From NCBI GenBank assembly GCA_028707495.1, contig JAQWAS010000001.1, forward strand, positions 112,382 through 159,733: a DNA stretch of 47,352 nucleotides, given 5' to 3'. A program made the translations under genes and the position numbers. Shown here piece after piece: positions 2,012 through 21,613 of the stretch. Every line of letters begins with the position of its first letter. Within the stretch, counting starts at the first letter, position 1. Under the pieces are notes generated by a model. It saw only the letters and a program-made list of their open reading frames with translations, was not told the DNA's origin and did not search any database. The stretch is from Patescibacteria group bacterium (GTDB lineage Bacteria; Patescibacteriota; Patescibacteriia; UBA2591; JAQWAS01).

Positions 2012-2155
2012 CGTCATTCCTGGCTTGACCAGGAATCTAGGGTTAAGAACGATTATCTTTATCTTAAAATATGTGCTGTTTTTATAAACAAAAATTTATT
2101 TAAATCAAAGTTTATACTAATCAACACTGGATCCCCAATCAAGTTGGGGATGACG
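2012..2155. repeat. Miniature palindromic element A1 (144 bp)
   Basis: Starts with CGTCAT and ends with ATGACG. Each end forms its own hairpin: CCTGG-cttga-CCAGG on the left and CCCCAA-tcaag-TTGGGG on the right. The core between them is AT-rich. The left arm, ending in GGAATCTAGGGTT, matches the right arm of the element at 5064-5156 in inverted orientation, so the two are copies of one family. The flanks, both T-rich, are not an exact duplication. It may also act as the 3' end structure of the greA-lysS transcript. Confidence 0.8.
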
Positions 2156-5055: not shown

Positions 5056-5164
5056 ATTAAAATCGTCATCCCTGCGAAAGCGGGGATCCAGGAATTATAT
5101 TCAATAAACAATTATTTCATTTAAACCCTAGATTCCTGGTCAGGCCAGAAATGACGATTAAAAT
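5056..5164. repeat. Miniature palindromic element A2 with 8-bp target duplication
   Basis: The element spans 5064-5156 (93 bp), from CGTCAT to ATGACG. It is bounded by perfect 8-bp direct repeats ATTAAAAT at 5056-5063 and 5157-5164. Its right arm, read in reverse complement, closely matches the left arm of the element at 2012, including GGAATCTAGGGTT. Its left arm forms the hairpin CCCTGC-gaaa-GCGGGG. It separates the divergent 86-aa gene and alr. Confidence 0.85.
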
Positions 5165-12398: not shown

Positions 12399-15026
12399 AT
12401 GCCTAATTTTGGTAATTTTACTTTAAAATCTCAAGAGGCGTTGCAAAATGCCCAAGAATTGGCTTTAAACAAAAAACAACCCGCGGTTGATGCCTCTCAC
12501 CTACTCTACGCCTTACTTGAACAAAACGATGGAGTGGTTTTAGCTGTTTTAAAAAAATTAGAAGTCGATGTTTTAAAATTAAAAAAAGATATCGAAAATG
12601 AAATTAATAAATTACCTCAAATCGATAAGCCAGCGCCTGGGCCAATGGGTGGAATTTACGTGACTAATGAATTAAGACAGGTTTTAATTCAGGCTGAAAA
12701 AGAAGCTGATCAACTCAAAGACGAATATGTTAGCACAGAACATTTTCTACTGGCAATTTTAGAAATTAATACTTTTTTAAAAAAGACTCTAAATGATTAT
12801 CAAGTTGAACGCGAAAAGGTTTTACAAGTTTTAGCATCAGTACGGGGTTCGGAAAAAATTACCGATGACGAACCAGAACAAAAATATCAAGTACTTGAAA
12901 AATATACTCAAAATTTAACTCAAAAGGCTCGTGAAAAAAAATTAGATCCAGTCATTGGGCGAGGCGAAGAAATTCGTCGCGTAATTCAAGTTTTATCACG
13001 CCGGACTAAAAATAATCCAGTTTTAATTGGTGAGGCTGGGACAGGTAAAACCGCCATTGTCGAAGGCTTAGCTCAAAGAATTGTTGATGGTGATGTACCC
13101 GAAACTTTAAAAAATAAAGAAGTTATTACTTTAGATTTGGGAGCTATTATTGCTGGAACTAAATTCCGTGGCGAGTTTGAAAATCGTTTTAAAGCTATTT
13201 TAAAAACTATTAAAAAATCTGACGGAAAAATAATTTTATTTATCGATGAAATGCATACCCTAGTTGGCGCTGGATCAATTGAAGGCGCTTTAGACGCTTC
13301 AAATATGATCAAACCAGCCTTAGCGCGCGGAGAACTTCATTGTGTTGGTGCTACGACGTTAAAAGAATATCAAAAGTATATTGAAAAAGATCAAGCCCTA
13401 GAAAGACGTTTTATGCCAGTTTATGTGAGTGAACCCACTACCGAAGAAAGCATTGCTATTTTACGTGGTATTAAAGAAAAATACGAATTACACCATGGTG
13501 TTCAAATTACCGACGATGCTTTAATTAGCGCCGTTAAATTAGCTACACGTTACATTACTGACAGATTTTTACCAGACAAAGCTGTAGATTTAATTGATGA
13601 AGCCGCCTCAGCTTTGAGATTAGAAATTGAAAGCGAACCTGAAGAATTAGATAAATTAAGTCGTGAGATTAGACAATTAAAAATTGCCATCGAAGCTTTA
13701 AAAAAAGAAAAAGTTAAAAAAATGGATACGCGTTTTAAAAAAATTAGTCGTGAATTAGCCAATAAAAAAGAAATCATGAAAGAATTGGAATTGCGTTGGC
13801 AAAAAGAGAAACAAATTATTGAAGAGATTAAGGCCGATAAAAAAGAGTTGGAAAAATTAAGCGATGAGGCCGAGATTGCCGAACGCCAGGCAGATTTGGA
13901 AAAAGTTGCTGAAATTAAATATGATCGTATTCCTAAGTTGGAAGATAAAACTAAAACCAACGAACGTAAATTAAATAAAATTCAGGATCGTATTATTCGT
14001 GAAAAAGTGACTGAAGAAAATATTGCCGAAGTAGTTTCGCGTTGGACCGGCATTCCAGTGGCCAGAATGCTTGAAGATGAAACCAAAAAATTAGCCCACA
14101 TGGAAGATGAATTACATCAACGCATAGTTGATCAAAATGAAGCTGTGACGGCAATTTCTAACGCTATTCGACGTTCTCGAGCCGGTATTGCCGAGCACAA
14201 CAAACCGATTGGTTCATTTATCTTTATGGGACCAACTGGTGTCGGTAAAACAGAATTAGCCAAGGTTCTGGCTGAATTTATTTTTAATGATGATGGCGCT
14301 TTAGTCCGTCTAGATATGTCTGAATACATGGAACGCCATACGGTTTCTAAAATTATCGGTTCGCCTCCGGGTTATATTGGCTACGACGAAGGTGGTCAAT
14401 TAACAGAAAAAATTCGTCGCCGGCCCTATGCAGTTATTTTACTTGATGAAATCGAAAAGGCTCATCCAGATGTTTTTAATGTTCTATTGCAAATTTTAGA
14501 TGATGGTCAATTAACCGATGCCAAGGGACGCAAGGTTAATTTTAAAAACACTATCATTATCATGACGTCAAATATCGGTAGTGAATATTTTAAAGATTTA
14601 GCTCAAAAAGCCAGCTTGGGTTTTGATTTAGATAAAAACCTAAAAAGTCAAGAAGAAAGCATTAAAGAAAAAATATTAAAAGAACTGCGAGATAATTTTA
14701 AGCCTGAATTTTTAAATCGTATTGATGAAATAATCGTTTTTAAACCTTTACTAAAAGATTCTATTCGACAAATCGTTGATTTTCAATTAAAACAGGTTGA
14801 AGAAAGATTGAAAGATAACGAGATTAAAATTAAAATTAGTAAAAAAGCTAAAGACCATCTAGTTGAAAAAGGCTTTGATCCGCTTTATGGCGCCCGACCC
14901 TTAAAACGAATTATCCAAAGTTTAATTTTAAATCCTTTAGCCATGGAAATTATTGAGGGAAAAATTAAAACCGGTAGTAGCGTGTTTATTGATTTTGATA
15001 GAGATAATATTAAATTTAAAATTTAA
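12399..15026 (+). CDS. clpB: Chaperone disaggregase ClpB
   Basis: Hexameric AAA+ disaggregase that rescues aggregated proteins with DnaK. The 875-residue protein has an N-terminal Clp repeat domain (~1-150), NBD1 with Walker A GEAGTGKT (211-218) and Walker [11 protein letters not shown], a coiled-coil middle domain (~400-545) and NBD2 with Walker A GPTGVGKT, Walker [11 protein letters not shown] and arginine finger FLNRIDE. The middle domain marks ClpB rather than ClpA or ClpC. It is controlled by a strong promoter and CIRCE. The leader of ~55 bases has no ribosome binding site. The gene is monocistronic, ending at a terminator. Confidence 0.97.
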
Positions 15027-21469: not shown

Positions 21470-21613
21470 TCATTGCGACCCGCCGATTTGGCTTGAAAAC
21501 AATCTCGTACAGTATAGCGTCATTGCGAGCGTAGCGAAGCAATCTCGTATAGTGCTTTAATCTACGAGATTGCCACGGTCGTCCGCCGAGTCGGCGGACT
21601 CCCTCGCAATGAC
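21470..21613. repeat. Palindromic element B1, one full and one partial copy
   Basis: A full copy at 21520-21613 is bounded by GTCATTGCGAG and CTCGCAATGAC. It contains two more hairpins: GCAATCTCGTA with TACGAGATTGC, and GTCCGCCGA with TCGGCGGAC. A partial copy (21470-21519) with the same left end lies directly before it. The right arm, from GATTGCCACGGTCGTC onward, is shared with the element at 44470-44593. The rest of the stretch 21245-21683 holds only the features listed here and AT-rich sequence. Confidence 0.85.

Follow-up and report, generated by a model that had tools for sequence, protein, structure and literature searches.

A gene-less CGTC-tagged REP dimer in a Patescibacteria genome and related units that enclose a GIY-YIG nuclease gene

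The window, a 47,352-nucleotide stretch from a Patescibacteria genome, contains a 93-bp palindromic element (5064-5156) that starts with CGTCAT, ends with ATGACG and carries a hairpin at either end. Perfect copies of ATTAAAAT abut it on both sides, and direct reading together with a palindrome scan confirmed the letters. A sequence-only reading had taken it for a miniature mobile element with an intact 8-bp target duplication, a view that corresponds to a classical MITE of a DDE transposase.

A dispersed family of CGTC-tagged REP dimers

CGTC-tagged REPs (Di Nocera, De Gregorio and Rocco 2013, PMC3733652), which include dRS3 of Neisseria and RPE-4/6 of Rickettsia, are composed of a CGTC or TGTC tag, an 8-9-bp stem starting with AT, a 4-5-nt loop and a CCA tail, and occur in intergenic DNA, mostly as head-to-head dimers. 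That survey listed them from Proteobacteria, Chlorobi, Bacteroidetes, Spirochaetes and Thermotogae, and reported them without a dedicated transposase.

The elements described here share the tag, stem, loop, tail, head-to-head pairing and intergenic position. They have a terminal unpaired CGTC (or TGTC/CCTC) tag, an 8-9-bp stem with AT in its first positions (with one mismatch in each focal arm), a 4-5-nt loop and a CCA-like tail, and the genome has them in several copies, mostly paired with the tags outward. As single-stranded DNA, 5056-5164 folds better than 200 of 200 shuffles (z -3.8). By its sequence the focal element is thus assigned to this known class as a gene-less, non-autonomous member, with its hairpins head to head and CGTC outermost. 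The proposal that CGTCAT/ATGACG termini and terminal hairpins define the family is supported by consistent CGTC/TGTC ends and hairpins. The present elements differ from those of the 2013 survey in that the same arms also bracket a GIY-YIG gene, and in that Patescibacteria lie outside the phyla listed there.

Table 1 REP features in the window
Feature	Position	Strand	Basis
Focal element: head-to-head dimer of CGTC-tagged REPs, 93 bp, without a gene	5064..5156	.	reading, palindrome scan, alignment
REP arm CGTC-ATCCCTGC-GAAA-GCGGGGAT; 8-bp stem with one mismatch, 4-nt loop, CCA tail	5064..5087	+	palindrome scan; Di Nocera 2013 format
REP arm CGTC-ATTTCTGG-CCTGA-CCAGGAAT; 8-bp stem with one mismatch, 5-nt loop, CTA tail	5132..5156	-	palindrome scan
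Left ATTAAAAT flank, claimed target duplication; other copies without a match	5056..5063	.	direct reading
Right ATTAAAAT flank, claimed target duplication; other copies without a match	5157..5164	.	direct reading
Second head-to-head REP dimer, 144 bp, related to the host ~140-bp family; without abutting direct repeat	2012..2155	.	palindrome scan, flank statistics, alignment
REP arm CGTC-ATTCCTGG-CTTGA-CCAGGAAT	2012..2036	+	palindrome scan
REP arm CGTC-ATCCCCAA-CTTGA-TTGGGGAT	2131..2155	-	palindrome scan

The host genome (857 kb in 19 contigs) holds 9 strict CGTC REP matches, further TGTC versions and at least 7 related dimers, mostly of ~140 bp, at separate sites. BLAST with one 142-bp host copy returned others at E 5e-29 and 5e-23; the copies lie at C7:4551-4692, C2:57454-57595 and C3:22057-22196, with more degenerate ones near 69.9 and 111.8 kb of contig C3. 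Both C3:45314-45453 and the window dimer at 2012-2155 align with the ~140-bp copies through the interior. Because related copies with a shared interior stand at separate sites, the dimer family is dispersed in this genome.

The dimer at 2012-2155 had been described as a sister of the focal copy with matching arms in inverted orientation. One arm does match in that orientation (2005-2044 against 5124-5163, 93%), but alignment revealed little in common beyond it, and ~50 bp of the interior is missing from the focal copy, which has the arms of the family. The earlier claim that a non-coding element has transposed stands as far as a dispersed, non-coding mobile family is concerned, but not with the 8-bp duplication as its evidence.

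CGTC REPs were present in 3 of 26 genomes of the order and in 118 of 381 of the class. Searches of the genus and family for relatives with an empty site at the focal copy matched the host genome only. E. coli searched with a typical dimer, and phages and plasmids searched with the window arm, gave no match.

REP arms on both sides of a GIY-YIG gene

The family has fixed ends, and its arms are the same whether or not a gene lies between them. At C3:63070-63497 (L354:71-498) of the host genome, adjoining a tRNA-like sequence, the head-to-head REP arms enclose a complete 98-codon ORF. A second such unit lies on C1 at about 14293-14719 (L385), and its protein is 95% identical to that of the C3 copy. 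High similarity between the two units stops within ~10 bp of the REP arms, and their surroundings are unrelated. The sequence-only reading had suggested a search for a transposase that shares the terminal repeats. In the host genome such ends were found on the GIY-YIG gene and on no Y1 (RAYT) gene.

By sequence, the product of the ORF is a GIY-YIG nuclease (Pfam PF01541, E 9e-16), with Slx1-like UPF0213 proteins as the nearest solved structures (1ywl, E 8e-5); NCBIfam assigns it no family. In 106 sequences, the catalytic-type residues Y10, Y21, R31, H35 and E68 show conservation of at least 99%, consistent with a GIY-YIG domain. Prokaryotic Slx1-like GIY-YIG nucleases were described in 2006 as minimal proteins with largely vertical inheritance, and eukaryotic Slx1 is a structure-specific nuclease (PMC1564403 and its references). 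The present protein resembles the prokaryotic members (UPF0213; PDB 1ywl, 1zg2) as a predicted minimal single-domain GIY-YIG protein, but is multi-copy and REP-bracketed.

Two further observations were made in the host genome. At L342:1868-2134 (C3), the 5' part of an apparent tRNA gene occurs twice, with a divergent GIY-YIG ORF between the two copies; one tRNA-like copy is broken by a palindrome, and the arrangement may reflect a homing-like insertion. L001, L009 and L337 contain further types of GTCAT-headed palindrome (TGTCATGCTGAACTTG... and GTCATTGCGAG...), and the GTCATTGCGAG... type also flanks a GIY-YIG gene.

A protein search of 381 genomes of the class gave 283 positives, with 12 copies in the host. 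From these, 90 GIY-YIG loci were chosen by protein only, as the best-scoring matches, a choice that favours the subclade of the query. A locus counted as bracketed if a GTCAT-headed hairpin stood within 300 bp on each side, the pair facing head to head, with a strict hairpin definition. Bracketing was observed in 42 of the 90 loci, compared with 2 of 580 random anchors in the same loci (Fisher p 7e-39). A hairpin on at least one side was present in 67 loci, and under the strict definition 23 had no detected arm on either side. The bracketed units measure 354-576 bp, most of them below 430, with a median of about 380 bp. Arm similarity was 0.79 within one unit and 0.63 between units (permutation p < 0.0005).

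A close GIY-YIG homologue (E <= 1e-20) was present in 15/15 REP-rich and in 14/32 REP-free genomes of the class (p 2e-4), the latter being REP-free by one REP pattern only (CGTCATNCC...). Stretches of other genomes selected by their REPs also contained a GIY-YIG gene. Scoring from the REP side was limited to 4 head-to-head pairs 250-1000 bp apart, which is too few; the script found the gene in 1, and L287, scored negative, holds one as well.

In records of a plasmid collection, some of which are chromosomes, inspection by eye revealed GIY-YIG genes between head-to-head GTC hairpins of local type in Azospirillum, N. gonorrhoeae (beside dRS3), Aeromonas, two Shinella, Rhizobium sp. CIAT894, Neorhizobium, Sinorhizobium meliloti, Sphingobium, Novosphingobium and one viral contig. 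Related GTCAT palindromes surround the gene in Planktothrix and Spirosoma; bracketing was unclear in Photobacterium and absent in R. tumorigenes. The viral contigs searched contained only two relatives. The REP - GIY-YIG - REP arrangement is thus also found in Proteobacteria, a cyanobacterium and Spirosoma. In the open-licence literature, with subscription journals largely outside the search, no report of a link between CGTC REPs and GIY-YIG was found. The class of the focal element was already known, and what is new here is the bracketing of a GIY-YIG gene by its arms.

In A. lipoferum, a GIY-YIG unit lies between sufB and sufC; A. ramasamyi, A. oryzae, B510 and A. thermophilum lack the unit, sufB-sufC being present without it in other Azospirillum species, and a gene-less Azospirillum dimer is missing from three relatives. 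The junctions at these empty sites are not clean. At one gene-less site the insert, at ~140 bp, is longer than the REP dimer and has CTGA at both ends, so that its junctions are ambiguous. From presence/absence and copy number we infer that the REP units are mobile.

Candidate enzymes for the spread of the units

In our main reading, the gene-less focal element is a CGTC REP dimer, REP - GIY-YIG - REP units are its relatives, and the nuclease would spread both; we put its probability at about two in three. The association described above makes the Slx1-like GIY-YIG nuclease a testable candidate for the enzyme that spreads CGTC REPs, association not being proof of a role in mobility. The nuclease may recognise or nick REPs folded as a hairpin or cruciform, or else palindromic target sites. 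A copy would then be produced by repair or replication synthesis, not by DDE cut-and-paste, and the unit placed at a new site. The nuclease would spread REP-ended units in cis and could mobilise dimers without a gene, the focal one among them, in trans.

With less confidence, we lean towards a broader proposal, in which CGTC-tagged REPs throughout bacteria have small Slx1-like GIY-YIG endonucleases as their dedicated mobilising enzymes. The units would make up a class of mobile elements of ~380 bp, in the order hairpin - GIY-YIG - hairpin; its non-autonomous members would be the gene-less dimers, and it would spread without target duplication, possibly into palindromes. CGTC REPs, among them Neisseria dRS3 and the Rickettsia RPEs, are widespread, and in the 2013 survey they lacked a dedicated transposase. 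A regular unit, which a search by protein alone brought out and which recurs in several phyla, points to one small enzyme as the candidate. If the nuclease has this role, it would give the RAYT/REPIN system a counterpart based on a nuclease.

Homing enzymes are known among the GIY-YIG nucleases, which lends some weight to an alternative that we regard as unlikely though still the best of the rivals: the gene would be cargo, or a further parasite aimed at palindromes, and the CGTC REPs would owe their spread to another enzyme. Other palindromes in the host fit this alternative, namely short CCGCC...GGCGG palindromes inside REP loops (L343, L353) and others near tRNA genes, as does the central position of Azospirillum REP dimers in unrelated larger repeats. 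Against it, the unit is regular over several phyla, with a narrow length range and similar arms placed head to head, a result that repeated independent insertion would hardly give. The nested positions in Azospirillum and in the host REP loops are also expected if palindromes are the targets of REP units, a notion for which they are suggestive only.

Less probable still is that the dimers are REPINs and that a Y1 (IS200/IS605-like) RAYT mobilises them, as has been suggested for GTAG REPs. The logic is the same, since REPIN/RAYT systems (REPtrons) also consist of head-to-head hairpin pairs without duplication, in gene-less copies beside enzyme-carrying ones, and the host has one RAYT-like ORF with an HUH-like motif (L228:1958-2698, C13). 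However, no CGTC REPs surround this ORF within the examined stretch, the tag is CGTC and not GTAG, and the gene between the arms encodes a GIY-YIG nuclease in place of a Y1 HUH transposase; no RAYT gene flanked by the same REP was found, and Di Nocera 2013 (PMC3733652) likewise found no RAYT flanked by CGTC units. Y1 genes are missing in 5 of the 15 REP-rich genomes, two of which (G161, G287) are rated 100% complete, and their occurrence in 10/15 REP-rich and 18/32 REP-free genomes of the class reveals no association (p 0.54). For this lack of association with REP number, RAYT/Y1 was rejected as the obvious enzyme. The L228 ORF, the sole RAYT-like one in the host, contains GC-rich palindromes in frame, one of which is GTAG followed by GCGAAAGC..., resembling a GTAG REP lodged within the ORF.

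No regular target duplication at the insertions

Dimers were gathered irrespective of their flanks and scored for abutting direct repeats of at least 4 bp. Such a repeat was observed in 1 of 44 dimers from the class of the host, the one being the focal copy, in none of 104 dimers from diverse other bacteria and in none of 14 from Azospirillum; the remaining copies of the host genome had none by eye. Flank identity at length 8 averaged 0.225 in the diverse dimers, below the background of 0.25, and there is therefore no signal of eroded duplications. The gene-carrying units also lack a regular abutting repeat, with a 10-bp repeat in 1 of 42 and one of exactly 8 bp in 0 of 42.

The 8-bp target duplication, proposed from the sequence alone for the focal copy, is rejected as a family trait by these flank statistics, being missing from the other copies in the host genome, from its class, from diverse bacteria and from the gene-carrying copies as a group. 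Copies without flanking 8-bp repeats, which the proposal itself had named as contrary evidence, were looked for and are what was found. At the focal copy, an exact abutting 8-bp repeat has a chance per site of 2.5e-4 (shuffled flanks) to 6e-4 (AT-rich window positions), the focal site being one among several. It is thus improbable by chance, yet finds no support in any other copy, and may be a coincidence at an AT-rich site or the product of a one-off microhomology event.

This perfect repeat is what speaks for a classical MITE of a DDE transposase, a reading that the 43 other class dimers, the flank identity at background level and the gene-carrying units make very improbable. MITEs of DDE insertion sequences are similarly short, non-coding and dispersed, with inverted terminal repeats, but have a fixed-length target duplication in several copies, which the CGTC family lacks, and the gene found with the ends of this family is GIY-YIG. 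Least probable of all is that the REPs serve the host as regulatory or terminator hairpins of the GIY-YIG transcript and are not mobile ends: their closeness to the gene, often within 25-60 bp, would suit such a role, but dimers of this kind also occur dispersed without a gene, the arms stand head to head on both sides, and the unit is missing at orthologous sites in relatives.

Other palindromes occur alongside the REPs. The larger repeats with central REP dimers on A. lipoferum plasmids (L190, L192, L193, L201; L197, L199) have inverted ends of ~20 bp and themselves lie inside other palindromes, giving nested palindromes. In the host genome, CCGCC(3-7)GGCGG forms a second palindrome family, with 27 matches compared with 1 for the reversed pattern. 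Its sites include window positions 21582, 44430 and 44558, L343:153 and L353, and two lie inside loops of CGTC/TGTC REPs.
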